Source of the DNA: Hyphococcus flavus | GTDB taxonomy: Bacteria > Pseudomonadota > Alphaproteobacteria > Caulobacterales > Parvularculaceae | Length of the DNA: 64,000 nucleotides | Direction: 5' to 3' | Assembly: GCF_028748065.1 (NCBI RefSeq) | Contig: NZ_CP118166.1 | Span: 325,501-389,500, forward strand | Shown here: piece after piece, positions 6,125-25,512 of the stretch | How positions within the stretch are numbered: the stretch's first letter is position 1 | Layout of the letters: every line of letters begins with the position of its first letter | The notes under the pieces: generated by a model | Database searches by the model: none | Told to the model about the DNA's origin: nothing | What the model saw: the letters and a program-made list of their open reading frames with translations, nothing else | Position numbers and translations under genes: made by a program

Positions 6125-6142
6125 ACGCAAACCGGATCCGGA

Positions 6143-6812: not shown

Positions 6813-6854
6813 CAGAAATTTCAAACGAACTTGCCTCGCATTATCGCGTGAATT

Positions 6855-7964: not shown

Positions 7965-8174
7965 CGCCTAACTAAATTCGGGCGTCTCAAGCACTTGGCT
8001 TCAACTGAAGCCGAAACAGCTTTGGAGACACCGACATTGAAGTTGTCATAGCCGAATTCGACGCTGATTTTCCCAGTTACGGGGACTCCCGGCCCCGGAG
8101 CTGTTCGTCTCAACGCCCTCCTGCACCTGCTTCTCCGGCACTGAAGCCCGGGCAACCGGCGCGCATTTTGACGA
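7965..8174. other. Intergenic region, nothing recognised
   Basis: No gene was found. It lies downstream of the convergent hydrolase fragment and the SDR gene. A GC-rich stretch (GGGGACTCCCGGCCCCGG) is present but no clean terminator hairpin could be defined. Confidence 0.4.
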
Positions 8175-8963
8175 TTAAAATGAAAACGCCAAATGCGCGC
8201 CGGCGTCGACAAGCAGGGTCTCTCCGGTTACATGGCGCGCATCCGGCGACGCCAGAAACAATGCGGCGCCGCAAACATCTTCCGCCGTTGAGGCCTCTTT
8301 TAGCGGAACGGCGTCTTTAATGTGCTTGCGCAAGGAATCCATCTGATCAGCGGCAAGCCTCTTTGCAAACCACGGCGTATCGATAAATCCGGGACAGACC
8401 GCATTGACCCTGATTTTCGGCGCCAGCACGCGCGCCAGGCACAGCGTCATCGTGGTCAGCGCGCCTTTTGACGCTGCATAGGCGATGGAAGACCCGATGC
8501 CCGTAAGAGCGGCGATTGACGACGTGTTGACGACCGCCGCGCGCTTGGGCGCCGCTTCGAGCAGCGGCCGCGCGCCCCGCGTCATCTGATAGGCGCCGAC
8601 GACATTGACGCGATAGAGGCGCATGAAGTCTTCGCTGTTCAAGGCGCCAAGATCGCTCTGGTCCAACGCGACCGCCGTGACGCCTGCATTGTTGAACAAC
8701 GCATCGATGCGCCCGAAGGGCTCAGCGGCGGCGGCGATTTTCTTGCAATCCTCGTCATCGCCGACATCCCCCCGGACCAGGACCGCTTTAGCGCCCGCCT
8801 CCTCGACCAGCGCCGCAGTCTCGTCCGCCTCTTCGGCATTCGCGTGATAATTGATGATGACGGCCTCAGCTCCGCGCGCCGCAGCCCCTTGGGCGATGGC
8901 GCGCCCAAGCCCTGTCGACGCGCCCGTTACAGCGACAATGCAGTCGGCGAAGGTCTTTGACAT
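8175..8963 (-). CDS. Short-chain dehydrogenase/reductase (SDR)
   Basis: NAD(P)-dependent oxidoreductase of the classical SDR family, about 262 residues from ATG 8963 (ribosome site GGAAAGGG upstream). The cofactor motif TGASTGLG is at residues 13-20, NNAG at 91-94, catalytic Ser in the NTSS stretch near 148, and Y162-x3-K166. It is the last gene of a three-gene minus-strand operon (MFS, TauD-type oxygenase, SDR) with 23-24 base gaps. In that setting it probably oxidises an alcohol or reduces a ketone made during breakdown of the imported compound; the substrate cannot be read from sequence. Confidence 0.9.
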   Translation of the reverse strand: MSKTFADCIVAVTGASTGLGRAIAQGAAARGAEAVIINYHANAEEADETAALVEEAGAKAVLVRGDVGDDEDCKKIAAAAEPFGRIDALFNNAGVTAVALDQSDLGALNSEDFMRLYRVNVVGAYQMTRGARPLLEAAPKRAAVVNTSSIAALTGIGSSIAYAASKGALTTMTLCLARVLAPKIRVNAVCPGFIDTPWFAKRLAADQMDSLRKHIKDAVPLKEASTAEDVCGAALFLASPDARHVTGETLLVDAGAHLAFSF

Positions 8964-8986
8964 GGCGCCAGCCCTTTCCCGTTCCG

Positions 8987-9868
8987 TTAAAAAGGACGGT
9001 CGCCCTTGATTGTGACCCTGTTTCCGTAACGGCGATGGGGCCAGTAGTCCCACACCGCATGATGCTGCGCGCAGCGATTGTCCCAAAAAGCAAGGGAGCC
9101 CGGCGCCCAGCGAAAGCGGCACTGAAACGCCGGATGCGCCGCATGCCGGATCAGGAAACGCAAGATCGCATCGCTTTCGTCAGGAGGAACACCGTCGATC
9201 GCAGTCGTAAAGCCGGCGTTCACATAAAGGCATTTGCGCTTCGTTTCCGGATGCGTGCGCACGACCGGATGATGGGCGCGCGGATATTGCGGCTTATCCT
9301 TGACGCCCAAGTCCGCATAAAGCCCTCGATAAACATGCTCGCCGTCATGGATCGCGATCATGCCGTCGAGATAGGTTTTCATCTGCGGCGACAAGGCATC
9401 ATAGGCCGCATACATGTTTGCGAACAGCGTATCGCCGCCACAAGGCGGGGTTTGCTTGATGTAAAGAATGCTGCCCAGCGGCGGCTCTGGCTCGCAGGAT
9501 ACGTCCGTATGCCATGTTTCCCCATTCGCCCGCGAGGAGTTCTCATCGGCAGCGATGACCATCAGCTCCGGATGGCCGGCTTCGCTCGGGGCCGCCGGAT
9601 GCGCATGCAGCTCGCCAAAGAGCTTGCCGAAGGCGACATGCTGATCCGGCGTCAGGTCCTGACCGCGGAAGAAAATCACCAGATTTTCGAGGAAGGCGCG
9701 GCGAATTTCCTCAATGACGGCGCCGGAAAGCTCTTTGCCAAGATCGACGCCGCCAATCTCGGCGCCGATCACCGGCGTAAACTTGTTGACGGCGATGTAA
9801 CGATAGCTGTCCGTCTCCATGTCCCCAACCGCGGGAGCATTCAAGGGTTTTTGCTTTAGATTCATCAT
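8987..9868 (-). CDS. TauD/TfdA-family Fe(II)/2-oxoglutarate dioxygenase
   Basis: Non-haem iron dioxygenase, 293 residues. The iron triad is visible as H120-x-D122 (GETWHTDVSC) and the distal His in WDNRCAQHHA (about 269); the 2-oxoglutarate-binding Arg is in GNRVTI (about 284). Members of this family hydroxylate a carbon next to sulfonate, ether, ester or amine groups, which then falls apart. The start is one of two adjacent ATGs (9868, 9865); the ribosome site is weak. Second gene of the MFS-TauD-SDR operon. Taurine is not implied: no tauABC genes are nearby. Confidence 0.92.
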   Translation of the reverse strand: MMNLKQKPLNAPAVGDMETDSYRYIAVNKFTPVIGAEIGGVDLGKELSGAVIEEIRRAFLENLVIFFRGQDLTPDQHVAFGKLFGELHAHPAAPSEAGHPELMVIAADENSSRANGETWHTDVSCEPEPPLGSILYIKQTPPCGGDTLFANMYAAYDALSPQMKTYLDGMIAIHDGEHVYRGLYADLGVKDKPQYPRAHHPVVRTHPETKRKCLYVNAGFTTAIDGVPPDESDAILRFLIRHAAHPAFQCRFRWAPGSLAFWDNRCAQHHAVWDYWPHRRYGNRVTIKGDRPF

Positions 9869-9892
9869 TTGCTACTTCGATTTCTAAGGCAT

Positions 9893-11197
9893 TCAACATG
9901 GTTTGTCGGCCCGTCCCCAGGCTCTGCCTGCAAAATAAAAGGCGATGGCGGACGGTATGTTGAACAAAAATGAAAAGGCGATCGCCATGCCGAGCGCCGC
10001 AACGCCAACGGACGGCGCCAGCGCATCGCTGATTAAACCGATCACCAGCGGTCCAAGCCCAAGCCCCACTAAATTCTGTATAAAGATCATCAACGCGGCG
10101 GCGCTCGCGCGCTCTTGCGGATCCGCAACTCCCTGGACAAGCGCGTAGGAGGCCGGCTGATAAAGCGTGTTGCAAAACACCGCCGCCACCGCGCCGATGA
10201 GCGCAAACACAAGACCTTGCGCCAGAAAAGCGGGCACGCCGACAAAGGTCGCGGCGAAAACCGTCACGGCGGGCCACCAGGCGAGCCAGCGGCGATCGCG
10301 TTTGGCGAGAAAATCCCCGGCCGCGCCGCCAATCAGGCTGCCTAACGCACCCGCAATCGCCGCTGATGCGCCCAGGATCGCCGCCGCCGCACCGACCGAC
10401 ATGCCGTGAGCGCGCACGAAATACGCAATGCCGAAAGCAGCGAGCCCATAGGCCACCATCAAGTGAAACGCAGATCCGGCGACGCAGAGCAGGAACGGCG
10501 GTGATTTCATCAATGCGCCGAACGCCTTAACCGCGCGCCCCGCCCTGGCGGCGCCGCCCAGGCGAACCGGCTCCTTAAGCGTGAAATAGACCAGCGCGGA
10601 CACGATCAATCCGGGCGCGCCAAGCGCCATAAACGCCGCGCGCCAGCCATGGGTTTCCGCCACGAGGCCGCCGATCAGCGACGCAACAAGACCGCCGGCC
10701 GAGATGCCCACAACGAGGACGGAAAACGCAGACGAGCGCCGCTCCGGCGAAACGGAATCCGCGATAAGCGAATGTGTGCATGGAGCATATCCCGCCTCGC
10801 CGGCGGCGACTCCGGTGCGCGCGACGGCGAGATACCAAAAACCGGGCGCCACGCCGCACAACATCGTCATGGCGCTCCAGACCGCCAGACACGCCGCAAG
10901 GATGTTGCGGCGATTGAGCCGGTCTGCGGCGCGTGCAATCGCAAGCCCCAATGTCGGGTAAACGAGCGCAAAGGCGGTTCCGCCCACCAGCCCCAGCATG
11001 GTGTCCGAAAGACCGAATTCATTTTTGATGGGCTCGGCCACGATGCCGATAATCTGCCGGTCGGCCATGTTCAGGGTCGACACCAGAAACATGACGCCAA
11101 GGAAATACGGCAAGGACGTTCCTGCGGCCTTGCCGGACGCCGCGCCAGACATCGGGATTGCGCCGGGCTCCGGCCTGCCGCTCGCCGCCATTCTCAT
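9893..11197 (-). CDS. MFS transporter
   Basis: Inner-membrane transporter of about 434 residues with twelve hydrophobic segments. Typical features are LNMADRQIIGIVAEPIK in helix 1 and the loop 2-3 motif (ARAADRLNRRNIL). The sequence style is that of the sphingomonad-type MFS group often found beside TonB receptors and catabolic genes. ATG 11197 is chosen because AGGAG precedes it by five bases; a longer upstream reading has no ribosome site. First gene of the operon with the dioxygenase and SDR, and its promoter carries a palindrome shared with other genes of this island (11324-11338). Confidence 0.9.
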   Translation of the reverse strand: MRMAASGRPEPGAIPMSGAASGKAAGTSLPYFLGVMFLVSTLNMADRQIIGIVAEPIKNEFGLSDTMLGLVGGTAFALVYPTLGLAIARAADRLNRRNILAACLAVWSAMTMLCGVAPGFWYLAVARTGVAAGEAGYAPCTHSLIADSVSPERRSSAFSVLVVGISAGGLVASLIGGLVAETHGWRAAFMALGAPGLIVSALVYFTLKEPVRLGGAARAGRAVKAFGALMKSPPFLLCVAGSAFHLMVAYGLAAFGIAYFVRAHGMSVGAAAAILGASAAIAGALGSLIGGAAGDFLAKRDRRWLAWWPAVTVFAATFVGVPAFLAQGLVFALIGAVAAVFCNTLYQPASYALVQGVADPQERASAAALMIFIQNLVGLGLGPLVIGLISDALAPSVGVAALGMAIAFSFLFNIPSAIAFYFAGRAWGRADKPC

Positions 11198-11323
11198 GTC
11201 CTCTCCTAACGCACGTCTTATTTTATGGCATGCAGCCCCAAGCCGAGCTGACGGTGTTTCATCGCCAGCGCGTTCTGGCCATGTTGTTCTGTTTGCCCCC
11301 ATGAAACGCCGCCCCGGAGCTTT

Positions 11324-11338
11324 TGTCAATAATCGACA
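11324..11338. promoter_or_regulatory. Palindromic operator candidate, site A (MFS-TauD-SDR operon)
   Basis: TGTCAATAATCGACA is an almost perfect 15-base palindrome. On the minus strand it contains TTGACA, a consensus -35, about 125 bases before the MFS start. The same 14-base core recurs at 20974-20987. Proposed binding site of the nearby GntR regulators; this is inference. Confidence 0.6.
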
Positions 11339-11429
11339 TTAAGTGCGTTTCGCGCGGAAATGCGGCGCAGGCGGGTCATGTCTCACGCCTACGCGCTCAC
11401 CCCCGCCGGCCAGCAAGGTTCGCACGTCC

Positions 11430-12221
11430 CTAGTCGGAAGCCCCGGCCTTTGACGACTTTTCCAGCGTCGCCTCTGACGTCTCGCCTGTTGGCGTCTCGC
11501 CCGTTTCGGCGCGCCGCCGGATCTCCGCAAGACTGTCGAGCACCAGATCCCGCGCCAGACGCTCCGCCTCGCCAACACGCGCTTTTTCAATCGCCTTACA
11601 TAGCGCCGTCCAGCGCGCCGCCGATCTGCGGCGGCGTTCAGGACTTAAAATGCTGGCCCATAGCACGGCGACTTCACGCTCAAACACTGCGGACATCCGC
11701 CCGAGATACCGCGCGCCGGACAGGCTGGTGATCAAAACGGAAACAGCGCGGCGCACTGTGATGTAATCGCCGACAGTCGCTTCCTTCGCGATCGACAACC
11801 GCGTCAGCAGAGCGACGCCGTCCGCAATGGCGGCGAGCGCGGCGGCGCTGCGCTCGCTCGCGGACGCGGCAAGGCCCGCCTGGGCGGCGAACAACTCAGC
11901 GCGAATATGAAAAAGCGCCTCCAGCTCGTCGTCCGTTAGCTTGCGCACGATTGCGCCTTTTCGCCCTCGAAGCGTGACAAGCCCGTCCCTGTCCAGGAGG
12001 CGCAACGCTTCGCGCACCGGCCCGCGGCTGACATCAAAATGATCCGCCACCGCCAGCTCCCGAATCGACTCGCCCGGCTTGAAATCACCAAACTGAATCC
12101 GATCTGCAATCCAGGCCGCGATATAACCGGGCAAAGACGGCGGCGGCGGCTGCGCCACACCAGCGATGGTTTCAGCCCGCGCAACGAAAGCCCTGATATC
12201 CGGTGCAAGCTCCGCCGTCAT
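11430..12221 (-). CDS. GntR-family regulator with full-length FCD domain
   Basis: FadR/FCD-type repressor, 263 residues. Winged HTH at about residues 29-95 (ESIRELAVADHFDVSRGPVR, EALRLLDRDGLV), then an all-helical FCD ligand domain up to about residue 240 and a low-complexity tail. Its ATG overlaps the stop of a second GntR gene (ATGA), so both are made from one message. The ligand is presumably a carboxylate or CoA intermediate of the local pathway. Confidence 0.9.
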   Translation of the reverse strand: MTAELAPDIRAFVARAETIAGVAQPPPPSLPGYIAAWIADRIQFGDFKPGESIRELAVADHFDVSRGPVREALRLLDRDGLVTLRGRKGAIVRKLTDDELEALFHIRAELFAAQAGLAASASERSAAALAAIADGVALLTRLSIAKEATVGDYITVRRAVSVLITSLSGARYLGRMSAVFEREVAVLWASILSPERRRRSAARWTALCKAIEKARVGEAERLARDLVLDSLAEIRRRAETGETPTGETSEATLEKSSKAGASD

Positions 12222-12772
12222 CGGTTCAGACTTTCTCCGATTTCTCCAAGCCGTTCCGGCGCAACGATGGACACATGCAAGGCGATGCGCGCCATCGCCC
12301 TGGCGAGACGCGCATTCCTGGACGCCGCTCCAAGCCGCTCAAGCTGCTCTTCAACGAGGACGAGCCGGCGCGACGGCGCCTTCGCCGTTATCTCGCCAGC
12401 GCGCAACTGTTCAACCGACGCGTCATGACGGCGAAGTTCCTCCCCCAAGAGCCAGCGCAGCCGGTCCCACACGATAAACAGCTCCGCGGGCGGTGCGTAT
12501 TGATCGTCGATCACCCGGGCGCCGCGGCGCGCAGACACGATGATCGCGCCCTGCTTTTCCAGAAGGTGAAACGCTTCGCGGGTCGTCGCCGCCGTGCAAT
12601 GAAACCGCTCGGCGACCGCGCGCTCGGTGATGCGGGCGCCCGCCTTGAAGGACCCATCGACAATCAGCGCGCGCAGCTCGTCCGCGACCAGCGAAGGGCC
12701 TGGCCCGCTTTTGCCTGAATCCGTCCTCGAGGACTTTGGCGACTGACGCGTTGTGGTTGGTTTTTTGGTCAC
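12218..12772 (-). CDS. GntR-family regulator, C-terminally short
   Basis: Second GntR protein, 184 residues. A basic N-terminal tail is followed by a wHTH at about 28-95 (ITERAVAERFHCTAATTREA) and only part of an FCD domain. Aligned by eye with its neighbour, it stops right after PERLGEIGESLN, where the paralogue continues with about 30-50 more residues of FCD helix. The stop overlaps the next start, so the truncation looks fixed rather than recent. It may form heterodimers with the downstream regulator. A half-palindrome lies upstream at about 12823-12832. Confidence 0.88.
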   Translation of the reverse strand: MTKKPTTTRQSPKSSRTDSGKSGPGPSLVADELRALIVDGSFKAGARITERAVAERFHCTAATTREAFHLLEKQGAIIVSARRGARVIDDQYAPPAELFIVWDRLRWLLGEELRRHDASVEQLRAGEITAKAPSRRLVLVEEQLERLGAASRNARLARAMARIALHVSIVAPERLGEIGESLNR

Positions 12773-12822
12773 GCCCTGACTTTATCTGCCTGCTGTGGGT
12801 CCCTGAAATGGCGAGAGAAAAT

Positions 12823-12832
12823 AATTGACTTT
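12823..12832. promoter_or_regulatory. Operator half-site candidate upstream of the GntR pair
   Basis: ATAATTGACT is the reverse complement of AGTCAATTAT and resembles one arm plus centre of the island palindrome. The other arm is not conserved. Suggests possible autoregulation; weak evidence. Confidence 0.3.
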
Positions 12833-12895
12833 CTTATATTTACGCAACTGTTTGCCAAACATTGCAAATTTTAACGCCGGCGCCGAAAATGCGGA

Positions 12896-12922
12896 GGGAG
12901 CGCCGGCCTTGCCGGCGCTCCC
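12896..12922 (-). terminator. Intrinsic terminator of the minus-strand serine hydrolase gene
   Basis: Perfect 12-base stem (GGGAGCGCCGGC) with a CTT loop, 30 bases past the stop of the hydrolase gene. On the minus strand a short ATTTTC follows the hairpin. It would isolate the hydrolase from the downstream GntR genes. Confidence 0.75.
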
Positions 12923-12951
12923 CGAACAATTCGCCTCGAAGCTTTCAGCGA

Positions 12952-14163
12952 TTACGGATTGTTGTTCGCCTGAATATCAATCAGGTCCGCGAGCCCGCCC
13001 GAATTGATGATGAGATCCGTCGCGTCGATATATCCCGTCAAAAGATGGTCATCGAGGTGGATATAGGCGGCCCAGTCCTTGTCGGGCGAATAAAACGTAA
13101 CCGCGCCCCAGGCGCCGACGCCCAGATAGATTTTCGAGCCGCCCTGGTCGAACACCCACTGGCCGCGCGCATAATCGAGATCGAGATCCTTGATCGGGCT
13201 GCTCACCGTCGGTACAGATCCGCTCTGCAACGGAACCGTGACTTCATTCAATGAAGCAAGAGAAGCCGCATTGAAAAGCGTGTGATTGTTTCCGCACTCG
13301 CCGCTCAGCAGCGCCTGCGCGAAGGCGCCGCCATCGAACAGATCGGTTTCAAATCCGCCTGCCGCCCATTCATTATTGGGGCGCTTCACAAGCGTGTCCG
13401 TAAGGTTGCAGGGACCGGTCAAATAGTCCTCAAGAATTGTCGTAAAGTCATCATTGACAGCGTTAGCCACCGCAAGTCCGAGAATCTGCCACGACATTGG
13501 ACCGTAAGAGAAAGCTTCGCCGGGCGCGTAAACATAAGCGCTGTTGTTGTTCGGATCGTCATCTTCCGCGATGTCAGCGGCGATCATATCCTCCCCGCAT
13601 GTTTCAAACGAAACGAACGGATTGTTAATGCACGAAGTCAGCCCAATCGGCCAAGCGCTGACGGTCTCATGTCCTGTCATCATGGTAATGAGATCGTTGA
13701 TCGTCATGTGGTCGTAAACGAGACGCGATGTCCCGTTATCGTCGAATTGACTTGCGTTCAACGACGTCGCGTTTGTGATATGGTCCTTCACCAGATCGTT
13801 CAGCGAAAAATTGACATTCGGATCCTGCGCCACCGCCATCGCCACCGCCGCCGTAAAGGTTTTCGACAAAGATGCGACATTAAAGTTGTGATTGTTGATG
13901 AAGTAATCGCAGCTTTGGCCGTCCCACCAACCGAAGCCGGTCCAATAAACGACCTCGCCCTTGTGATAGATGATCATTCCCCCGCGCTGGAAAGGGGAAT
14001 TTTCCAACGCAGCTTTGACGTCGGTCCAATCATAACCCGATGGCAAAGGATCATCCGGACATTTAGCGTTGGTTTGCGCGGCGGCCTGCGTTGCAAAGAC
14101 CAGCGCCAGTAGCGCGCCGCATAGTGCTCCCACTCCTCCAAAATGCTTGCTTTTGAACCTCAC
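12952..14163 (-). CDS. Serine hydrolase, beta-lactamase/penicillin-binding superfamily, exported
   Basis: Probable periplasmic esterase or amidase with a class-C beta-lactamase fold. The start is GTG 14163, because GGAGGA lies five to six bases upstream; an upstream ATG at 14187 lacks one. A signal peptide ends at AAAQ near residue 30. The catalytic SxxK is SLSK at about 98-101 (NVASLSKTF). The expected Y-x-N is altered to YGPMSW (SYGP), and the third KTG-type motif is not obvious. The protein is rich in Asn, Asp and Cys for the family. Divergent from a second serine hydrolase, with palindromes in between. Substrate unknown; a role in resistance to beta-lactams is not implied. Confidence 0.85.
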   Translation of the reverse strand: MRFKSKHFGGVGALCGALLALVFATQAAAQTNAKCPDDPLPSGYDWTDVKAALENSPFQRGGMIIYHKGEVVYWTGFGWWDGQSCDYFINNHNFNVASLSKTFTAAVAMAVAQDPNVNFSLNDLVKDHITNATSLNASQFDDNGTSRLVYDHMTINDLITMMTGHETVSAWPIGLTSCINNPFVSFETCGEDMIAADIAEDDDPNNNSAYVYAPGEAFSYGPMSWQILGLAVANAVNDDFTTILEDYLTGPCNLTDTLVKRPNNEWAAGGFETDLFDGGAFAQALLSGECGNNHTLFNAASLASLNEVTVPLQSGSVPTVSSPIKDLDLDYARGQWVFDQGGSKIYLGVGAWGAVTFYSPDKDWAAYIHLDDHLLTGYIDATDLIINSGGLADLIDIQANNNP

Positions 14164-14287
14164 TGTTTCCTCCTTTTTTGATTGCATTCCATCCCCGCCG
14201 GAAGAGCCGCGATCGGGAATGCTTTTGGGTTGCCGGCGTACAAGGCGAGCAGGAAGAATCGGCGTTGCGGCCGGTGCGCCGTCATAT

Positions 14288-14302
14288 TGTCAATTATTTG
14301 CA
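14288..14302. promoter_or_regulatory. Palindrome-like operator candidate, site D
   Basis: TGTCAATTATTTGCA between the divergent serine hydrolases. The left arm matches sites A-C (TGTCAAT-AT); the right arm is degenerate. Inferred to belong to the same regulatory family. Confidence 0.4.
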
Positions 14303-14367
14303 ATTAGTCAAGAAAGCAGTGGATAGTCTGATATATTTCCTATATTTTCCTGAAAAAATCATAAATA

Positions 14368-14382
14368 TGAAATTTATTGACA
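14368..14382. promoter_or_regulatory. Palindrome-like operator candidate, site E
   Basis: TGAAATTTATTGACA, the reverse complement of TGTCAATAAATTTCA, sits 16 bases before the TTG start at 14399 and touches the ribosome-site region. TTGTCAATAA, read on the minus strand, is identical to the matching part of site A. Confidence 0.4.
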
Positions 14383-14398
14383 ATTCAGGGAGGAATTT

Positions 14399-15709
14399 TT
14401 GACTGCGCTTTTCACCCGCCGGAGCACGCTCGCCGCCGCCGCGTCAGCGCCGCTCGCCGCGCTCGCCCTGCCCTCCTGCGTCTCGAAAAAGTCGCCCGCC
14501 GGAATGTTCGACATCGGCCGCCTCAGCGCGGCGGGCGAGATGATCGACGGCCTCGTTGAAAGCGGCCAAATTCCCGGCGGCGCGGTGCGCATATCGCAGC
14601 ATGGCGAGCTGCTTTTCGAGCATTATGCGGGCAAGGCGGACATCGCATGCGGCAAGAACATCGCCCCGGATACGATCTATCGGGCTTATTCCATGACCAA
14701 GCCGGTTACGGCCGCCGCCATCATGCTGCTGGTCGAGGACGGCAGGTTGTCGCTCGATGATCCGGTGACCGCTTATGTTCCGGAGTTTTCCGATCTCGCC
14801 GTTTATGTTTCGCAGGACGGCGAGAAAATCGTGACGGAGCCTGCGGGCGTCATGCGCGTCGCTCACCTGCTGACGCATACGTCCGGCCTCAGCAATAGCT
14901 GGAATCCCGGTCCGCTTTCTCCTCTCTATCGCAAGGCCGGCCTTGTTTCAGCAAAATATGTCTACGATCCGGAATTCAGCGCCGGTCTTTCGGAATTCGC
15001 GGCCCGGCTCGGAAAAATCCCTCTGCAGTTTCAGCCCGGCTCGCAATGGCTCTACAGCATTTCCCCTGATATTGCGGGATTGGTTGTCGAGCGTGTCACG
15101 GGGACGAGCTTCAGCGCCTTTTTAAAGGCACGGATTTTCAACCCGCTTGGCATGGAGGATGCGGATTTTTATGTGCCCGCACCCAAGGCCGAACGGCTTG
15201 CGAGCATGTATGCATTAAAAGAAGGAAGCCTCATCCTCGCGGAAGCAGCGGCCGACTCTCCTTTCCTGACCAAGCCCTGCGCTGAATCCGGCTCCGCCGG
15301 ACTGTTATGCACGCTCAGCGATTATCACCGCTTCGCCAATATGCTTGCGGAATTCGGTGAAACCGGCGGCGCACGCGTCATGAGCCGCAAAAGCGTCCGC
15401 ACAATGACAGCGCCTCATGTGGGCGCCGAGATCCTCGGCGACACATTCCAGAAATTCATGGGGTTCGCCTCGGGCGGGTCCGGCCTCGGCATGGAGATGG
15501 CGCTTGGCGGCGCTGTGCTTACCGACCCGGCTGCCGCCGAAAAGCCCGGCCTTAAAGGCGAATACACCTGGGGCGGCGCGGCGAGCACGACCTTTTTCGC
15601 GGTTCCCGAGGCCGGCTTGTCGGCGACGCTGATGACCCAGCTTTTCCCATCGGGAACGCTGCCCTTGCGCGACATGCTGAAGACCGCCGTCTATCAGGCC
15701 ATGAATTAA
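14399..15709 (+). CDS. Serine hydrolase (EstB/class-C beta-lactamase family) lipoprotein
   Basis: Probable envelope esterase, 436 residues. The start is TTG 14399 with GGGAGGA upstream. The N-terminus has FTRRSTLAAAAS (Tat-like) and a lipobox ending at LPSC (about 27). Catalytic S98-MT-K101 (YRAYSMTKPVTAA) and YSIS at the second motif place it with EstB-like esterases. The C-terminal WGGAASTTFF stretch stands where KTG/HTG occurs and is typical of this group (Trp-Gly-Gly). Same operon as the DUF3089 esterase, 38 bases downstream. Divergent from another serine hydrolase. Confidence 0.9.
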   Translation: MTALFTRRSTLAAAASAPLAALALPSCVSKKSPAGMFDIGRLSAAGEMIDGLVESGQIPGGAVRISQHGELLFEHYAGKADIACGKNIAPDTIYRAYSMTKPVTAAAIMLLVEDGRLSLDDPVTAYVPEFSDLAVYVSQDGEKIVTEPAGVMRVAHLLTHTSGLSNSWNPGPLSPLYRKAGLVSAKYVYDPEFSAGLSEFAARLGKIPLQFQPGSQWLYSISPDIAGLVVERVTGTSFSAFLKARIFNPLGMEDADFYVPAPKAERLASMYALKEGSLILAEAAADSPFLTKPCAESGSAGLLCTLSDYHRFANMLAEFGETGGARVMSRKSVRTMTAPHVGAEILGDTFQKFMGFASGGSGLGMEMALGGAVLTDPAAAEKPGLKGEYTWGGAASTTFFAVPEAGLSATLMTQLFPSGTLPLRDMLKTAVYQAMN

Positions 15710-15747
15710 ACCGCTTTCCACGCCCGCCGCCCACCAAGGACTCAGTA

Positions 15748-16863: not shown

Positions 16864-16872
16864 GGCCGGTCT

Positions 16873-18348: not shown

Positions 18349-18421
18349 AAAAACCTCTCTTTTTGCTGGTGGCAGCATGCTCATATTTTTCAGCGTTCGC
18401 CATGGCGCACATCGGGTTTGC

Positions 18422-20650
18422 TCAGAACCTGTAACGCAGTTCCACGCCGGTCGCGCGCGGCGTTCCGAGCCTTTGCGTCGTCGCTTCCTGGAAAGTGAGA
18501 TACTGTTCATCAAAGAGATTGTTGACAAAACCGGCGATCTCGATCCGGTCATAGGTTACGCCGAACCGAAGATTGACGATTTGAAAATTATCAAGCAACG
18601 GAGACGGAACCGTCAGCTCCTGCGTTCCGCCCCATTGCCCGTAAGCGAACAAATTGACGAACATGTCGATCTTGTCGTTGAACGGCTGACGATAGTTGAG
18701 GTTTGAAGAAGCAAGCCAGTTCGGCGTCTGCGCCGTCGGCACGCCGGTCAGCGGTCCCTCCGTCACTTTTCCGTCCTGGCGAGAGGCCGCCAAAGTCGCC
18801 GTCAGCGTCCCTGCCCCGACCTCGAACGAACCGTTGAATTCGGCTTCAACGCCCCAGGTTCGCGCCTTGCCCGCATTGTCGAGAAAAACCGTCGGGGCCA
18901 CCGGACACGCCGGCAGGGTCACGCTGCAGCCATTGTCACGCTGCACGATGAGATCATCGGCCTCGGCGACATAGCCCGCAATCGCTACATATAAGTCGCC
19001 AAACTGGCCCTTTACGCCGCCCTCATACTCCGTCGAGGTTTCATCATTATAGGCGGCCGGGACCGGTATTGGCTGCAACGGCGTGCCAAGACTCGCATTG
19101 AACCCGCCGGCGCGATAGCTGCTCCCGACTTTTCCGTAGATTTGCCAGTCATCGGCGAAGCGATAAGCCAGCGTCGCATTATAGGAAACATTATCCGACG
19201 ACCGGTCAGCGGAAAAATTGAACGCATCCCCGCCTGTTTCCATGCCGGTGAAATCGTCGATCAAGCTCGACGTGCTGGAACGGTCGTCATTTGTGTAACG
19301 CAGTTCTCCCGTCAGGTTCAGCCGCGGCGTGATGTCTATCCCTAAAGACCCGAAAAACGCATAGGAATCATATTCCAGATCGACATCCGCACGGGTCCGC
19401 GTGAACACATTGATGATCTGGTTCGTTTGCGTCAGGCGGAAGGCGTTGCTGTCTTGCGTGAGATATTCAAAACCGCCCAGCCAGACGACGCGATCGTCAA
19501 ACAGTGTTCCGGTCAGATGCGCGACCTCGGTGATCGTCCTCGTTTCGTCGCGCTGATTGACGTAACTTTCACCGCCAAGCGGGAAAATCACCTCCCCGCT
19601 CAGATACGCTTCAAGCGCGCGCTCAGGCGTGATGGCGTCGGCGTCAAACGTATATTCGGAATTGCGCTGACGGATCAGCGTGTTCGAATGCAGCGTCGCC
19701 CAGCCAAGATCATATTCGATTGAAAGACCGCCGGCGTTGATTTCCTGATGCGCGAAAGGCTCCGTGCTGTGGTCGTATTCATAAGGCGGCTGGACGAAGC
19801 CGAGGGGAAAGATCGGTCCCGGGTCGATGACGACGCGATAGGTGATCGCCGGCACATCGAGATTCTGACGCTCGCCAAGAAGCGTGACGTCAAGCCGGTC
19901 ATTTTTGTATCGGACTTGCCCCCTATAGTCCAAGCCTTCCTGTCGGTCGAAATAAACGTCATTGCTCGGATTATAGAAAAAGCCTTCATTTTGATGAACG
20001 CCGTCGATCCCGACACGAAACGCCCATTCGTCCGAGGGCGATGCGTTCAGCACAAGCTGGCCTTCTTTTCCTTTCGTCTGCGTCGTGTAGCGCAGGTCGA
20101 GATAGCCGCTGTTTTCGAATTTCGGTTTCGCCGTGATCAAGTTGACGGCGCCGCCGACTGCATTGCGCCCGTAAAGCGCCCCTTGCACGCCCCGCAGCAC
20201 CTCAACACGCTCCGCATCGAAAATATCAAGGCGGGAAAAACTGCGCCCGCCAACCGTGCCGCCGCCGATGTAAACGCCATCACGATAAAGCCCCACGCTC
20301 GGATCGGCGTTTGTCGCGCGCGCTGTCGAAGAACCGCGGATGGACACTTCGGAATTGACGGGCGAGGTCGTATCGAAGAAACGCACGCCCGCCTGGCCCG
20401 CAAGAAGGTCCTTGGCGGATCGCGGCCCGCCCCTCTCCTGAAGATAGTCGGCGGAGAGCACCGCGGCCGACGCAGGCACATCCGACAGACGCTCTTCACG
20501 GCGGCGCGCCGTGACGACGATCAGGTCGCTTGCGGCGGCCGACGCGTCAATATCAGCAGCGCCAGCTTCCGCCTGCGCCGCCGCGCCGCCGCTCGCCAGC
20601 GAAAGCGCCCCCAGAGCCACGCCGCTCGCAAGCCAATCACCCAGTTTCAT
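18422..20650 (-). CDS. TonB-dependent receptor (catabolic-island type)
   Basis: Outer-membrane receptor, 742 residues, with a signal peptide ending near GAAAQA, a TonB-box-like IVVTARRREE, plug domain (RVEVLRGVQGALYGRNAVGG, AVNLITAKP) and a barrel that ends in RYRF. Ribosome site AGGGAGG precedes ATG 20650. It belongs to the large group of receptors that take up complex organic compounds in sphingomonad-like bacteria, not obviously siderophores. Its promoter carries palindrome site B. Probably co-transcribed with the MmgE/PrpD gene. Confidence 0.92.
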   Translation of the reverse strand: MKLGDWLASGVALGALSLASGGAAAQAEAGAADIDASAAASDLIVVTARRREERLSDVPASAAVLSADYLQERGGPRSAKDLLAGQAGVRFFDTTSPVNSEVSIRGSSTARATNADPSVGLYRDGVYIGGGTVGGRSFSRLDIFDAERVEVLRGVQGALYGRNAVGGAVNLITAKPKFENSGYLDLRYTTQTKGKEGQLVLNASPSDEWAFRVGIDGVHQNEGFFYNPSNDVYFDRQEGLDYRGQVRYKNDRLDVTLLGERQNLDVPAITYRVVIDPGPIFPLGFVQPPYEYDHSTEPFAHQEINAGGLSIEYDLGWATLHSNTLIRQRNSEYTFDADAITPERALEAYLSGEVIFPLGGESYVNQRDETRTITEVAHLTGTLFDDRVVWLGGFEYLTQDSNAFRLTQTNQIINVFTRTRADVDLEYDSYAFFGSLGIDITPRLNLTGELRYTNDDRSSTSSLIDDFTGMETGGDAFNFSADRSSDNVSYNATLAYRFADDWQIYGKVGSSYRAGGFNASLGTPLQPIPVPAAYNDETSTEYEGGVKGQFGDLYVAIAGYVAEADDLIVQRDNGCSVTLPACPVAPTVFLDNAGKARTWGVEAEFNGSFEVGAGTLTATLAASRQDGKVTEGPLTGVPTAQTPNWLASSNLNYRQPFNDKIDMFVNLFAYGQWGGTQELTVPSPLLDNFQIVNLRFGVTYDRIEIAGFVNNLFDEQYLTFQEATTQRLGTPRATGVELRYRF

Positions 20651-20734
20651 CTGCCGCCTCCCTTACACGCCGGCGCTGTTCGCGCGTTCGCCACCCGCGC
20701 GCCGTCAATTATGACTGTTATGCGAGCGATATTA

Positions 20735-20749
20735 TGTCAATAATTCACA
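20735..20749. promoter_or_regulatory. Palindromic operator candidate, site B (TonB receptor gene on minus strand)
   Basis: TGTCAATAATTCACA matches site A in 13 of 15 positions. On the minus strand it includes TTGACA, usable as -35. A second dyad, GTCAATTATGAC (20704-20715), lies nearer the receptor start and could cover the -10 area. Confidence 0.55.
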
Positions 20750-20874
20750 AATAGGAAGACGGTGGAGAGATTTCCTCGCGTAATTTTCAGCGCTGCAGCA
20801 CGCCAGCGCCTCACTGAAAAGGCGCCGCGGGCCGCCGGGGGCGTCCCTATTTTCCTCATGTTTCCCAGAAAATG

Positions 20875-20917
20875 TGCCAGCCGAAGCGCCGCCGGCGCCA
20901 GCGCGTAATGGCTGGCA
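20875..20917. repeat. Nested inverted repeat between divergent TonB receptor genes
   Basis: TGCCAGCC (20875-20882) pairs with GGCTGGCA (20910-20917), and the spacer holds a second dyad GCGCC-GCC-GGCGC (20886-20898). No T-run follows on either side, so it does not look like a terminator. Function unknown. Confidence 0.45.
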
Positions 20918-20972
20918 AGCCAAGGAATCGCAGGCGCTGTGGATTTTCACAGTTGCCTTTCACCAGACATTA

Positions 20973-20987
20973 AGTCAATAATCGACA
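20973..20987. promoter_or_regulatory. Palindromic operator candidate, site C (TonB receptor gene on plus strand)
   Basis: AGTCAATAATCGACA is identical to site A over 14 bases and lies 85 bases before ATG 21072. The flanks ATTAAG-/-CATATTG continue AT-rich, as in a promoter. Confidence 0.55.
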
Positions 20988-21071
20988 TATTGTAAAAATA
21001 GCCCGTCCACGCGCCGGCAAGAAGCGCAACAGACGGACAGCAGCCCGACATTCGGGCGCAAGGGAGGGAAA

Positions 21072-23321
21072 ATGCGCAAGACTATCCTGACGGCTTCCGT
21101 CTGCGCCGCCGCGTTTACAGCAAGCGCCGGCGCGCAAGCACAACAATCGACGTCCGGCGACGTGATTGTGGTAACGGCCCAAAAGCGCGAGCAAAACATT
21201 CTCGACGTCGGCGCGACCGTGACTGCGATCAGCCAACAAACGCTTCGGGACGCGCGCGTCCTCGAAATGCGCGACATCGCGACTTTTGTTCCGAATGTCG
21301 ACATCCGCGAACAGGCGCCCGGCACCCTGCCGGTGATCACCATTCGCGGCGTCGGACTCAATGATTTCAGCAACACCAACAACCCGAGCGCCGGCGTTTA
21401 CATCGATGAAGTCTATCTCTCCTCGCTTGGGCTTCTTGCTTTCGACTTTTTCGACCTTGAGCGCATCGAAGTTCTGAAGGGCCCGCAAGGCACGCTTTAC
21501 GGCCGCAACTCAACAGCGGGCGCCGTCAATTTCATCACGGCGAAACCGAATTTCGACGCCCCCCTGACCCGGCTGTCCGCTAGCTATGGCAATTACGACA
21601 CGCTCGAAGTCGAGGGCGTGACCAATATTCCCGTTACCGAAGAACTCGCCATTCGCCTCGGCGCCAAGTCCATCCGCCAGTGGGAGGGCTATTATTTCAA
21701 CCGCGCAGTCGACGACGATATCGGCGAACGCAACATCGCGCTCGGCCGCGCGCAGCTTCGCTGGACGCCGGGAGACAGCGCGGACATTCTGTTGAAAGTC
21801 GAGGGCTACTCGAACAATTCCGGACTTGGTCAGGGCGCGTTTTTCGGCGCTGTAGACTATACAAACCCGCCGAGTTTTGCGTGCGCCGCCATTGCGGAAA
21901 ATGAAATCGACCCGACCTGTACGGACTTTTTCGGCTACAGCGATCCTGACGGCGACCCTTACACAGGCGACTGGTCGGATCGGCAGTTTTACGACGCCAA
22001 ACAGATCGGCGCGACGCTTCGCGGCGTATTCGACCTTGGCGGCGCGGAACTGACCAGCGTCACCGGCTTCATCGATCACTATCGTGAAGCTTATAACGAT
22101 CTCGACGCCTCGCCGCTGACCGCGCTTGAATTCCTGCCGACCACAGACGTCCGGCAATATTCTCAGGAACTCAGGCTCGCCGGCAATCTCAATGAGAATT
22201 TTGACTGGCTCGTCGGCGCTTTCTGGTCGCACGATCACATCGTCGTCGGATCCACCGGCTATGCAGACGTCCTCTTTCAAACCCGCACAAGCGGCTTTGG
22301 CGACCAGACGACGGATTCAGTCGCCGGTTTTATCCACGGCGAATATGCGCTGACCGACACGCTATCCGTTATCGGCGGCCTCCGGCTCACCTGGGAGGAA
22401 AAAGAATACACGGCGCGCGTCTTTGACGACAATCCGTTCGGCACGAGCTGCCTGATCAGCCTCACCTGCTCGCCGGGCCCGACGCCTCAAATTACGCTCG
22501 CTGCGGCGGACGCCCTTAAAGCGGAAGACACCAACCTCTCCTGGAAAGCCGGGCTCGACTGGAAGCCGCTTCCTTCAACGCTGCTTTACGTCAGCGCCTC
22601 GCGCGGCGTGAAATCGGGCGGCTTCTTCTTCGGCTTCGCCACAAACAGCGGCTCCTTCCAGCCCTTCGAACCGGAAAGCCTGGTCTCTTATGAAGCCGGC
22701 GTGAAGCACCAGACCGCGAACGGCGCCCTGCGGCTGGCCGCGAGCGGGTTTTATTACGACTATTCCGACATCCAGACCTTCATCCGCGACCAGTCGGGCG
22801 CAGTCCCGTTCCAGCGCCTCGGCAACGTTGATGAAGCGAATCTGTACGGCGCCGATCTCGAAGCGACATTGGCGCCGCCGGCAATTGAAGGGTTGACGCT
22901 GACGGTCGGGCTCGGACTTCTCGATTCCGAATTGGGCGAGTTTGTCGCCCTTTCCGGCCCGGCGCCGAAGGGCAACGAATTCCCCAATGCGCCCAGCGTC
23001 ACCTTCAACACCCTGGCGCGTTATGAACGCGCGATCTCTCCCGGATTGCGCGGCGTCATCCAGATTGACGGCCGCTATTCCGGCTCCACCTTCAAGGACG
23101 CGCTCAACGATCCGCTGATCGCGTCTGACAGTTTCACGTTATGGAACGGCCGGCTCGCCGTTGGCGCTGAGGACGGAAGCTGGGAAGCCGCGCTCTGGGC
23201 CAAAAATATCTTTGACGAAGCTTATAAGGTTCAAGGCGTCAATCTGACGAGCCTCGGTTTCGGCTATGAAAACTACAATCCACCGCGCACTTTCGGCGGA
23301 ACGATAACCGTTCAGTTTTAA
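21072..23321 (+). CDS. TonB-dependent receptor (catabolic-island type)
   Basis: 749-residue outer-membrane receptor. Signal peptide to about residue 23 (SAGAQA), then VIVVTAQKREQNILDVG, plug motifs ERIEVLKGPQGTLYGRNSTA and AVNFITAKP, and a barrel ending in TVQF. AGGGAGGG ribosome site before ATG 21072. It diverges from the other receptor gene of the island; both promoters carry the same palindrome. Followed after 175 bases by a terminator and the acyl-CoA ligase gene. The substrate is unknown. Confidence 0.93.
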   Translation: MRKTILTASVCAAAFTASAGAQAQQSTSGDVIVVTAQKREQNILDVGATVTAISQQTLRDARVLEMRDIATFVPNVDIREQAPGTLPVITIRGVGLNDFSNTNNPSAGVYIDEVYLSSLGLLAFDFFDLERIEVLKGPQGTLYGRNSTAGAVNFITAKPNFDAPLTRLSASYGNYDTLEVEGVTNIPVTEELAIRLGAKSIRQWEGYYFNRAVDDDIGERNIALGRAQLRWTPGDSADILLKVEGYSNNSGLGQGAFFGAVDYTNPPSFACAAIAENEIDPTCTDFFGYSDPDGDPYTGDWSDRQFYDAKQIGATLRGVFDLGGAELTSVTGFIDHYREAYNDLDASPLTALEFLPTTDVRQYSQELRLAGNLNENFDWLVGAFWSHDHIVVGSTGYADVLFQTRTSGFGDQTTDSVAGFIHGEYALTDTLSVIGGLRLTWEEKEYTARVFDDNPFGTSCLISLTCSPGPTPQITLAAADALKAEDTNLSWKAGLDWKPLPSTLLYVSASRGVKSGGFFFGFATNSGSFQPFEPESLVSYEAGVKHQTANGALRLAASGFYYDYSDIQTFIRDQSGAVPFQRLGNVDEANLYGADLEATLAPPAIEGLTLTVGLGLLDSELGEFVALSGPAPKGNEFPNAPSVTFNTLARYERAISPGLRGVIQIDGRYSGSTFKDALNDPLIASDSFTLWNGRLAVGAEDGSWEAALWAKNIFDEAYKVQGVNLTSLGFGYENYNPPRTFGGTITVQF

Positions 23322-23338
23322 GCGCCTGGATTGACCAG

Positions 23339-23376
23339 ATGTGAGCGGAGCGCTTCCTCCCCCGTTCCGCTCACAT
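23339..23376 (+). terminator. Hairpin after the TonB receptor gene
   Basis: Perfect 11-base stem ATGTGAGCGGA / TCCGCTCACAT with a 16-base loop, starting 18 bases after the receptor stop. No clear T-run follows, so it may be a Rho-assisted or attenuating terminator. Confidence 0.6.
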
Positions 23377-23496
23377 TCCCTCACCCCGGCAGAGGCCGGC
23401 GTGCAATTTTCCGGAAGACGGCCGGATTTGCTATGTAAACTGCATGGCCTGATCTGCTAAGCACTCTGCAAATGTAAAAAAATTTGGGAAGAAACC

Positions 23497-25116
23497 GTGC
23501 TTGACGGGCTCATGCAACGTTCGCCGCTGATGATCAGCGGCATTCTGGACTACGCGGCCAACGCGCATGGCGACAGGGAAATCGTCTCCCGACTCCTAGA
23601 CGAGCCTTTGCATCGCTATGACTACGCCGGATTGCGCCGCCGCGCGGCGAAATGCGCACAGATGCTCAAAACGCAAGGAGTAGCGCCCGGAGAATGCGTC
23701 ACCTCTCTTGCCTGGAACACGCACCGGCATCTTGAGTTATTTTACGCCGTTCCCGGCATTGGAGCCGTTTTGCATACGGCCAATCCCAGATTTTCAGAGC
23801 AACAGCTCGCCTACACCATCAATCATGCGGGCAGCCGGATTTTGATGTTTGACAAGTCTTTCGCCGCGCTGGTCGAACGCCTGCGGCCGCAGCTTTCCTC
23901 CATCGATACTTTTATTGTGCTGTCGGAAGACGCCTCCTCCGTAAACGGCGAACTCAATGCGGCGAGATACGAAGATCTTATCGCCGATCAGGACGAGGAA
24001 ATCGTTTGGCCCGCCTTTGATGAAAACGCCGGAGCGTTCTTGTGCTACACATCGGGAACGACCGGCGATCCCAAAGGCGTTCTCTACAGCCACCGGTCTG
24101 TCGTGCTGCACGGCCTGGCCGCCGGCCTGCCCGGCGCTTTCAATTTTTCCGCATTTGACTGCGTCATGCCCTGCTCTTCGCTTTATCACGCGACAGCCTG
24201 GGGCCTTCCTTTCGCTGCCGCGATCAATGGCTGCAAGATCGTGCTGCCTTGCGAAAAGATGGATGGCGCCAGTCTTCAGGAGCTTATCAAAAACGAAGGC
24301 GTCACCTTTTCCGGGGGCGTGCCGACCATATGGACCATGTATCTCGACCATCTTGCACGTACAGGCGAAACCACAGAAACGCTGGAACGCATCATCATCG
24401 GCGGATCGGCCGTGCCCCGCGCCATGGCGGAAACCTTCCGGGACAAATACGGCGTCACAGTTCGCCAGATCTGGGGCATGACCGAAACCAGCCCGCTCGG
24501 CGTCGTGGCGACGCCAACGCCCAAACTGGCGGCGCGCGGTGAAAAAGAGCTGAACGACGTCATCTGGACCCGTCAGGGCCGTCTGCAATTCGGCATTGAA
24601 CTCAAGATCGTCGACGACGATGGCAAGGCGTTGCCGAATGACGGCGAAACCTCTGGCGCACTTCTTGTTCGCGGCCCATGGACGATTGAACGCTATTACC
24701 GGGCGGAGAAATCCGCGCTTGATGCAGACGGATGGTTCGACACCGGCGACATCGCCACGATCGACTCGCAAGGTTTCCTGCGCATTACTGACCGCAGCAA
24801 AGACGTCATCAAATCCGGCGGCGAATGGATCAGCTCCATCGATATCGAAAACGCGGCCGTCTCGCACCCGGACATTCGAATCGCCGCTGTCGTCGGCGTG
24901 AAGCATCCAAAATGGGAAGAGCGCCCAATTCTCGTCGTTGAAACACATAACGGCGCCGCCCTGTCGGATCAGGAGGTCCTGAGCCATATCGAGCCGCATT
25001 TTGCAAAATGGTGGCTTCCGGACGCCGTTATCTTCGCAGAGGTGCCGCTGACGGCGACTGGAAAAATCGACAAGAAGAAACTGCGCGATCAATATAGATC
25101 ACGCTTATTGTTTTGA
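23497..25116 (+). CDS. AMP-binding acyl-CoA synthetase (long/medium-chain type)
   Basis: Activates a carboxylic acid to its CoA thioester with ATP; 539 residues. The start is GTG 23497 after GGGAAG. AMP-binding motif [12 protein letters not shown] at about 184-195, GMTETSPLG in the A5 region, TGD near 430, and the catalytic lysine in TGKIDKKK (about 523). N-terminal [19 protein letters not shown] is typical of the group containing long-chain fatty-acid and methylmercaptopropionate CoA ligases. In context it would activate an acid released by the island's esterases. Confidence 0.93.
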
Positions 25117-25230
25117 ACAGGGCGCCCACGCAACACTTATGGCCTGACCCATCGAAGTTGAGGTGACATTGTGAAAGTGGCCCAGACTCAGGGTTAGTTT
25201 TCCGGCGAAAATCTCGAGAAGGAGATCGCC

Positions 25231-25512
25231 GTGAAGAGGAAGAGATATTCAGTTGAACAAATTGTCGCCGTCCTGAAGCAGGCCGAGATGGGAACGCCGG
25301 TTGCGGACCTGATTCGGCATGCCGGCATTACTGAACAGACCTTTTATCGATGGAAGAAGAAGTATGCCGGCCTCGAGAGTGACCAGGTGCGGGAGCTGAA
25401 GCAGGTTCTCGATGAGAACACGCGTCTGAAGAAGCTTGTTGCGGAGTTAAGCCTCGACAAATCTGTGCTCCAGGATGTTCTTTCAAAAAAGTTTCCCGGC
25501 CAGCGCTCATGA
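25231..25512 (+). CDS. IS3-family OrfA (HTH transposase subunit)
   Basis: 93-residue HTH_Tnp_1 protein with KRKRYSVEQIVAVLKQAEMG and GITEQTFYRWKKKYAG, then a leucine-zipper-like stretch (ENTRLKKLVAELSLDKSVLQ). The start is GTG 25231 after GAGAAGGAG. Near the end an A6G run (25485-25491) allows a -1 shift into OrfB. Confidence 0.92.
   Translation: MKRKRYSVEQIVAVLKQAEMGTPVADLIRHAGITEQTFYRWKKKYAGLESDQVRELKQVLDENTRLKKLVAELSLDKSVLQDVLSKKFPGQRS
25485..25491 (+). promoter_or_regulatory. Programmed -1 frameshift site of the IS3 element
   Basis: A-AAA-AAG is placed in the slippery frame of OrfA (TCA AAA AAG). After a -1 slip the frame continues without stop into OrfB through its ATG at 25509, giving the OrfAB transposase expected of IS3 elements. 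Confidence 0.75.

Follow-up and report, generated by a model that had tools for sequence, protein, structure and literature searches.

The closest described relative of the system considered here is AlkR, a GntR/VanR regulator of Pseudomonas aeruginosa SJTD-1. According to the accessible part of its description, AlkR represses alkB2 and other alkane genes, its operator, footprinted by DNase I over the -10 region, is ATTGTCAGACAAT (ATTGTC-A-GACAAT), binding is strongly reduced in R45 and R49 mutants, and the protein is released by C16- and C18-CoA (PMC12042122). Our subject is a stretch of 64,000 nucleotides of Hyphococcus flavus (contig NZ_CP118166.1, positions 325,501 to 389,500; hereafter 'the window'), in which a catabolic island carries two adjacent genes for GntR-family proteins, here called GntR-A and GntR-B, and six copies of a palindromic, operator-like site.

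Three further systems invite comparison. BusR, a GntR-family tetramer recovered as a structural match (PDB 7OZ3), reads two separated half-motifs by a ruler mechanism; it differs in having another effector domain and in consisting of one protein only. ExuR and UxuR of Escherichia coli are both full-length regulators, and we know of no degenerate reading helix or stretched operator in that system. The likeness is that two paralogous GntR proteins act on one metabolic regulon (PMC9369180, as far as the available text goes). Atu1419, a VanR regulator of Agrobacterium fabrum, is described in the portion available as an FCD-type repressor of catabolic genes with several palindromic operators, in which an arginine of helix 3 reads an essential guanine; it differs in its 10-bp operator, ATGTATACAT, and in being a homotetramer (PMC7797058).

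AlkR itself, which controls catabolic genes, shares with the window the operator halves ATTGTC and GACAAT, which are identical, and has nearly the recognition helix of GntR-A; in contrast, its spacer measures 1 nt and ours 7 nt, and the accessible part of the report mentions no partner resembling GntR-B (PMC12042122). Here, we show that six operator-like sites, one for each predicted transcription unit of the island, co-occur across genomes with the GntR-B/GntR-A pair. Judging from sequence and from the described relatives, the island is probably a mobile catabolic unit with its own local regulon, in which GntR-A, likely together with GntR-B, would repress the six units until an intermediate of the pathway releases them.

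Six palindromes before six predicted units

Gene order and strand predict six units (MFS-TauD-SDR, GntR-B/GntR-A, bla1, bla2-DUF3089, TBDR1-MmgE/PrpD, and TBDR2-ligase), each of which is preceded by one site: six units, six sites. The features are as follows; distances from site to start are counted to likely start codons, some of them inferred, and ORF stands for open reading frame.

8175..25119, no strand: whole island, a sharp-ended block also present in Marinicaulis flavus contig C2
8175..8963, minus strand: SDR oxidoreductase (family scan; ORF open from 9122, start at 8963 likely, inferred)
8987..9868, minus strand: TauD-family 2-oxoglutarate dioxygenase (PF02668, 245 bits)
9893..11197, minus strand: MFS transporter (PF07690; ORF open from 11329; ATG at 11197 with a ribosome-binding site, by eye)
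11324..11338, minus strand: operator of the MFS-TauD-SDR unit, TGTCGATTATTGACA on the gene-facing strand, 126 bp before the ATG at 11197
11430..12221, minus strand: GntR-A, GntR winged helix-turn-helix plus diverged FCD-like domain (PF00392, 52.7 bits; cut-off 27)
12218..12772, minus strand: GntR-B, GntR winged helix-turn-helix plus shortened FCD-like helical domain (PF00392, 45.3 bits)
12816..12830, minus strand: degenerate operator of the GntR-B/GntR-A unit, 43 bp before the GTG; sixth best of the window
12952..14187, minus strand: bla1, beta-lactamase-fold serine hydrolase (PF00144, 60.1 bits; signal peptide by eye)
14288..14302, minus strand: operator on the bla1 side of the divergent esterase promoter, 100 or 124 bp before the likely start
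14368..14382, plus strand: second, half-degenerate operator, on the bla2 side, 16 bp before the bla2 start; fifth best of the window
14399..15709, plus strand: bla2, beta-lactamase-fold esterase (PF00144, 220 bits; twin-arginine/lipobox leader by eye)
15748..16863, plus strand: DUF3089 protein (PF11288, 230 bits; lipobox leader by eye)
16873..18381, minus strand: MmgE/PrpD-fold protein (PF03972/PF19305; ORF open from 18552, overlapping TBDR1; start inferred)
18422..20650, minus strand: TBDR1, TonB-dependent receptor (PF00593, PF07715)
20735..20749, minus strand: operator of the TBDR1-MmgE/PrpD unit, 84 bp before the ATG
20973..20987, plus strand: operator of the TBDR2-acyl-CoA ligase unit, 84 bp before the ATG
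21072..23321, plus strand: TBDR2, TonB-dependent receptor (PF00593, PF07715)
23497..25116, plus strand: acyl-CoA ligase (PF00501)

The original prediction, made by a model from the letters of the window, had named these gene functions, and the family scans agree with it. It had also placed six palindromes, all of which are found where it put them, and its identity counts are reproduced: 11324-11338 (TGTCAATAATCGACA) and 20973-20987 (AGTCAATAATCGACA) are identical at 14 of 15 positions, and 20735-20749 (TGTCAATAATTCACA) matches the 11324-11338 palindrome at 13 of 15.

With up to three mismatches, the motif TGTCRATWATYGACA occurs nine times in the 64-kb window, five of them inside the island; shuffled windows average 3.19 matches, and none of 100 reaches nine. 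Across the whole genome (3,472,649 bases), 20 places lie within two mismatches, 16 outside the island and four inside, where about 0.1 would be expected in 16.9 kb (Poisson P 3.5e-6). The palindrome is thus not spread at random over the genome, the outcome that would have spoken against the original prediction, since four of its 20 places fall within 0.5% of the sequence. At one mismatch or fewer, four places remain, three in the island and the fourth in a long ORF adjoining rpoB. When ORFs are taken mechanically, 15 of the 16 non-island places fall inside ORFs of at least 120 aa and the last inside one of 109 aa; by the same test, three of the four island sites are also overlapped by ORFs (172, 114, and 85 aa), which we take as chance ORFs because the sites sit between island genes, so that the contrast is suggestive and not clean.

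When the window is scored with a matrix built from 12 sites at four other loci (the second M. flavus cluster, C12; H. oceanitis; and two further genomes of the order, G311 and G067), its best places are 11324 (30.8), 20735 (27.4), 20973 (25.5), 14288 (24.0), 14368 (17.2), and 12816-12830 (14.0), with the seventh at 10.1. The six sites first proposed are therefore exactly the best six of 64 kb under a matrix from other genomes, whose training sites had originally been picked with the predicted pattern at one mismatch or fewer, a choice that builds in the spacing of 7. A pattern-free scan of promoter stretches for inverted 4-base words at gaps of 0 to 15 found only TGTC with gap 7 in all five loci; no word was common to more than three loci in 200 shuffles, which preserve base composition and not dinucleotides. 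The palindromes are real, and their consensus is ATTGTCAATAATTGACAAT (ATTGTC-AATAATT-GACAAT).

Conservation and transfer of the operators

The island aligns with M. flavus contig C2 over 16,953 bp at 96.5% identity, compared with 83.5-86.9% in the rpoB/rpoC region of the same two genomes, and the limits of the common block (8175 and 25119) are no more than 3 bases away from the stop codons that bound the gene set. These figures point firmly to a recent horizontal transfer of the entire unit along with its operators and regulators. An IS3-type transposase gene (rve, HTH_21; 25509-26354) lies just past the right end. On the left, 6124-8175 holds short ORFs only and looks like gene debris (two ORFs scanned, no Pfam match); farther downstream of the island are genes for a HipA-type kinase (33911-35170) and an AbiEi-type antitoxin (41814-42662).

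Because the C2 copy is so close to the window, its sites prove little, and this is what would favour regarding the palindromes as chance, or as common ancestry of recently copied DNA. More distant loci leave that explanation next to no probability. In C12 (proteins 66-89% identical to those of the window, DNA 75-81% where alignable) and in H. oceanitis (shared genes beside the GntR pair 54-73% identical; its TBDR1, located elsewhere, 61%), the 15-mers are kept at matching promoters while the flanks have drifted, and G311 and G067 were found by the motif alone. The 11324 operator is kept in the two M. flavus clusters and before a second M. flavus tauD and the H. oceanitis tauD; 12816-12830 and 14368 are kept in both M. 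flavus clusters, and 14288 holds its position in both clusters and in H. oceanitis, whose TBDR2 site stands at the matching place, 81 bp before the start. Leave-one-locus-out scans of 20-58 kb stretches returned eight strong sites in C12, three in H. oceanitis, and two each in G311 and G067, the next match scoring 6.3, 5.0, 3.9, and 4.2, respectively. The gap between bla1 and bla2 in H. oceanitis has one site only, with no counterpart of 14368 in the matrix scan.

The second M. flavus tauD (75% identical; L050:423-1406) is preceded by the perfect form of the operator, TGTCAATAATTGACA, some 18 kb from the GntR pair; beside the MFS gene of C12, tauD fragments are the only tauD matches. The 599-aa gene that follows the second tauD looks acyl-CoA dehydrogenase-like by eye and has a weaker site, one of the eight returned for C12, at its start codon (joined C12 38156-38171). 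In G311 and G067 the operator and TBDR1 are found in different company, namely with genes for a beta-lactamase-fold protein, for a protein of 428-435 aa that matches no Pfam family (peptidase-like by eye), and for DUF1254/1214; H. oceanitis has carboxylesterases as well as a protein related to the 428-aa one. The 428-aa ORF of G311 was considered as a bla1 relative and set aside, as it shows no such similarity and is instead 46% identical to the H. oceanitis protein. Since these three genomes pair the operator with different genes, the constant theme across loci is uptake and hydrolysis, and the downstream chemistry varies.

Co-occurrence of motif and GntR pair

Among 398 genomes of the order, an exact-motif search found nine with a site (none for the reversed control), and in five of these (the window's own genome, M. 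flavus, H. oceanitis, G311, and G067) a GntR pair lies near a site. A GntR-A profile run on the same genomes, with the best 6 or 7 candidates per genome scored here and in the class search described below, picked out six loci in exactly those five genomes (E <=2.1e-118), followed by a gap to 2.5e-32. The profile contained G311 and G067 rows; with the single GntR-A of the window as query, G311 gives 162 bits, G067 gives 144, and the next match at most 82.4. The overlap of motif genomes and GntR-A genomes has a hypergeometric P of 1.6e-9, which is not a clean probability because the genomes are related and those two rows were in the profile. A site lies within 1.5 kb of the GntR-A gene at four of the six loci, since the G311 and G067 sites sit 2-3 kb away; among 25 further GntR matches, 24 (those with loci, 84.5 kb) had no site within 1.5 kb at up to two mismatches.

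The local GntR regulon of the original prediction is borne out in that the motif stands at all six predicted units and is found with the GntR pair across genera and families. We regard the regulon as well supported, and its reader is most likely the island's GntR-family protein.

GntR-A and the AlkR-type half-sites

AlkR (9ISW) is the best PDB match of GntR-A (E 8.7e-12) and also of GntR-B. The recognition helix reads VSRGSVREAL in AlkR and VSRGPVREAL in GntR-A, and the reading arginines R45 and R49 of AlkR are kept as R66 and R70 in all six GntR-A proteins. For the FCD domain (PF07729, cut-off 24.3), the GntR-A proteins of the window and H. oceanitis score 21.1 and 23.5, and those of G311 and G067 score 40.8 and 42.9. 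From the helix and the identical half-sites, we strongly infer that the ATTGTC/GACAAT halves are recognised by GntR-A in the manner of AlkR, through these two arginines.

What sets the operator apart is its 7-nt spacer, present in all 12 training sites (picked with that spacing) and returned by the pattern-free 4-base word scan. Other GntR relatives favour closer halves. In 46 non-duplicate GntR loci (54 minus 8 overlapping), TTGT-N2-ACAA occurs 11 times (6 loci) and the N3 form six times (6 loci), against Markov means of 1.4 and 1.3 and a largest count of 5 for each in 60 runs; N11 gives six and N14 five. With the half-site ATTGT the counts are N2 7, N3 4, N4 1, N11 1, N14 2, and 0 elsewhere. 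A spacing of 9 between TTGT and ACAA, that of the island operator, is absent in the 46 other GntR loci. As short spacings in the relatives, N2 is well and N3 moderately supported. Within the island there is one TTGTTGACAA, inside the TBDR1 gene. In G555, which has a solo GntR relative (35% identical to GntR-A), TTGTTGACAA stands before a tauD (40% identical; L129:7995) and again at the solo regulator's own start (L129:9795), if that start is the ATG near L129:9772; it would be a short-spaced operator with the same TTGT/ACAA half-site.

GntR-B, the asymmetric partner

At each of the six loci the GntR-B gene immediately precedes that of GntR-A; in G311 and G067 a single base separates the two, and in the other four copies (window, C2, C12, and H. 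oceanitis) they overlap by 4 bp. After its winged helix, which is also backed by the structure model and structural matches, GntR-B has about 95 residues. Four copies were searched with PF07729, the window protein at E 0.001 and three orthologues at E 0.1, and none gave a match; in the model, a confident one (pLDDT 85.4), the helical domain is shortened yet can be aligned with FCD regulators over 155 residues. Where AlkR has R45, the six loci have Ala, Ala, Ser, Ala, His, and Gln, so that the first reading arginine is lost; the R49 position is kept, and an RRGA sequence in the wing is invariant. By comparison, 47 distinct other GntR segments have Arg (43), Lys (2), His (1), or Gln (1) at the R45 position. 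As four of the six GntR-B proteins are close relatives, and the other two likewise, the arginine loss amounts to two or three independent lineages, not seven. The original prediction had the two GntR proteins as the regulators, which is likely correct; what it missed is the asymmetry of the pair and the AlkR-type halves with their wider spacer.

How the pair would produce the wider spacer may be pictured in two ways. GntR-A alone, as a homodimer of altered geometry, could read the stretched palindrome, with GntR-B acting separately or surviving as a degenerating, co-inherited paralogue. This is quite conceivable, if short of probable: GntR-A has a complete reading helix and an FCD-like domain, and the recognition helix of GntR-B diverges between loci while the operator stays unchanged. 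Against it stand the constant position of GntR-B immediately before GntR-A down to 31% identity, the preference of other GntR relatives for TTGT halves 2 bp apart (3 bp with less certainty), and one distant genome that joins two GntR domains in one protein. Alternatively, and here we speak tentatively, the repressor would comprise both proteins, with GntR-A on the half-sites and GntR-B packed between two GntR-A subunits, touching the AT-rich centre through its RRGA wings and stretching the operator by 6 bp.

The distant genome is G533, the only genome of its order. When a GntR-A profile was run on 372 genomes of the class, G533 was one of four to match at E 1e-30, beside the window's own genome, G441, and G555. 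A single ORF of 482 aa (L128:9078-10526) encodes a pair of GntR winged helices together with one FCD-like stretch, whose 20.3 bits fall short of the cut-off; the first helix reads SHSPVREA and the second SRGPIRDA, and the C-terminal half keeps both reading arginines. A TGTC-N7-GACA site, TGTCGGTTGTCGACA, lies 123 bp before the ORF, and the neighbourhood includes a gene for a DUF3089 protein (43% identical). If GntR-A and GntR-B do form one repressor, this protein would be its single-chain form. Several points weaken the comparison: the centre of the G533 site differs from the motif; TGTC-N7-GACA words outside the full motif number four in the ~230 kb scanned, about one per 60 kb, and ~0.3 would be expected by chance in the 15.5-kb contig piece; the protein is a single case from an 83%-complete genome; its N-terminal half matches GntR-A slightly better than GntR-B; and neither G441 nor a second GntR-A relative in G533 has a GntR-B neighbour or a TGTC-N7-GACA site. 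Further two-GntR proteins were sought in 299 genomes of the phylum, where only the window's own GntR-A matched at E 1e-30, and in 72,556 plasmid records, where no place covered 80% of the query; the literature matches listed include no described example of a protein with two GntR domains.

Mode of control

In the reading we favour, GntR-A would bind the ATTGTC/GACAAT halves through its two recognition-helix arginines, and GntR-B, coupled to it in one operon, would, less certainly, join the complex and could sit over the invariant AT-rich centre, giving a spacer of 7 instead of 1. The complex would repress all six units until released by a pathway intermediate, possibly a CoA ester made by the island's own ligase.

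Repression had first been argued from TTGACA, said to occur in two sites and taken as a -35 hexamer. By eye, the gene-facing strand of four sites has TTGACA, and the argument falls because the hexamer arises from the recognition half-site itself and is no evidence of a -35 element. A promoter scan of 10 kb returned three promoter-like sites where 3.2 were expected, and so gives the sign of control no support; its candidate at 20953-20982, with a -10 inside the 20973 operator, was left unused, the count being at chance level. Repression is suggested instead by the precedent of AlkR and Atu1419 and by the 14368 site, 16 bp before the bla2 start and next to its ribosome-binding site. A regulator that activates from sites upstream of the core promoter is rather unlikely: the TBDR sites, 81-84 bp before their starts in the window and H. 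oceanitis, would fit upstream of a -35 element if the leader is short, but the 14368 site could hardly serve an activator of bla2, and the available accounts have AlkR and Atu1419 repressing from sites over or near the -10 region (PMC12042122; PMC7797058).

Several observations tell against a pair-dependent, AlkR-like regulon. The FCD score of the window's GntR-A is under the Pfam cut-off. The promoter stretches of the word scan were hand-chosen and, in G311 and G067, placed around known sites; when the half-sites are lengthened to 5 bases, no word is found in more than two of the five loci, a number that 34 of 200 shuffles also reach, so that this form of the scan is uninformative. In H. oceanitis, the matrix scan found no site in front of TBDR1, which lies beside a LysR gene, or directly before GntR-B. 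The promoter count above does not exceed chance. Four genomes of the order, G396, G005, G007, and G247, have an exact site without the GntR pair, three of them (G005, G007, and G247) in the variant TGTCGATWATCGACA. Among 385 genomes of the class, nine have an exact site, the window's own included (control pattern in three genomes), and the other eight show single sites, with no island-type gene within 1.5 kb and no pair.

G007 has two copies of the fully symmetric TGTCGATWATCGACA inside 17 kb, and G005 and G247 have one apiece (L075:2331, L075:19604, L077:9963, L078:285); these pair-less sites possibly belong to a different regulator. The idea that the island palindrome, too, is bound by a regulator with its gene elsewhere in the genome draws on the twelve pair-less genomes, yet we hold it to be very unlikely: the sites are single in 11 of the 12 (G007 has two), at most one of the 16 other places in the host genome lies outside an ORF of 120 aa, and motif and pair stand together in all five genomes that have the pair.

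Substrate and catabolic reading

On the basis of the gene families, with leaders judged by eye, the two TonB receptors and three exported hydrolases would take up and de-esterify a hydrophobic ester; the MFS transporter would import the product, TauD and the SDR would oxidise it, and the ligase would activate it for beta-oxidation. The PDB relatives of bla2 are esterases (7PP3, 4IVI, Est-Y29, and 1CI8), and we take bla2 to be a family VIII esterase. Naming the substrate by homology was tried and given up: TauD and phenoxypropionate dioxygenase match the TauD protein about equally well (228 and 222 bits), the MmgE/PrpD protein has weak PDB matches to cis-aconitate decarboxylases and IDS epimerase, and the DUF3089 protein has no PDB relative at E 0.001. 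The best NCBIfam equivalog of the acyl-CoA ligase, 3-(methylthio)propionyl-CoA ligase, reaches 700 bits against a cut-off of 822, and no substrate-specific family scored above its cut-off in the libraries scanned with the island proteins. The MmgE/PrpD-fold protein (16873-18552) begins, by eye, with a twin-arginine-like leader, which is unusual for the family, whose known members are cytoplasmic or mitochondrial.

Significance

Among the matches listed from open-licence literature we found no paper on the island, the operator, or a GntR pair with a degenerate member, which is weak evidence of absence. The regulon itself is ordinary in kind and unusually complete, every predicted unit of a mobile catabolic island having an operator, and since motif-marked genes can be listed per genome, the motif offers a way towards the substrate. 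The novelty lies in the asymmetry, AlkR-type halves at an unusual spacing beside a conserved partner that lacks a DNA-binding residue AlkR needs, and, as well, one protein with both winged helices in a single chain. The two-protein reading, if true, would make this a heteromeric FCD-type regulator in which the degenerate partner sets the operator spacing, and a large regulator family would then gain operator specificity by pairing with a degenerate paralogue.

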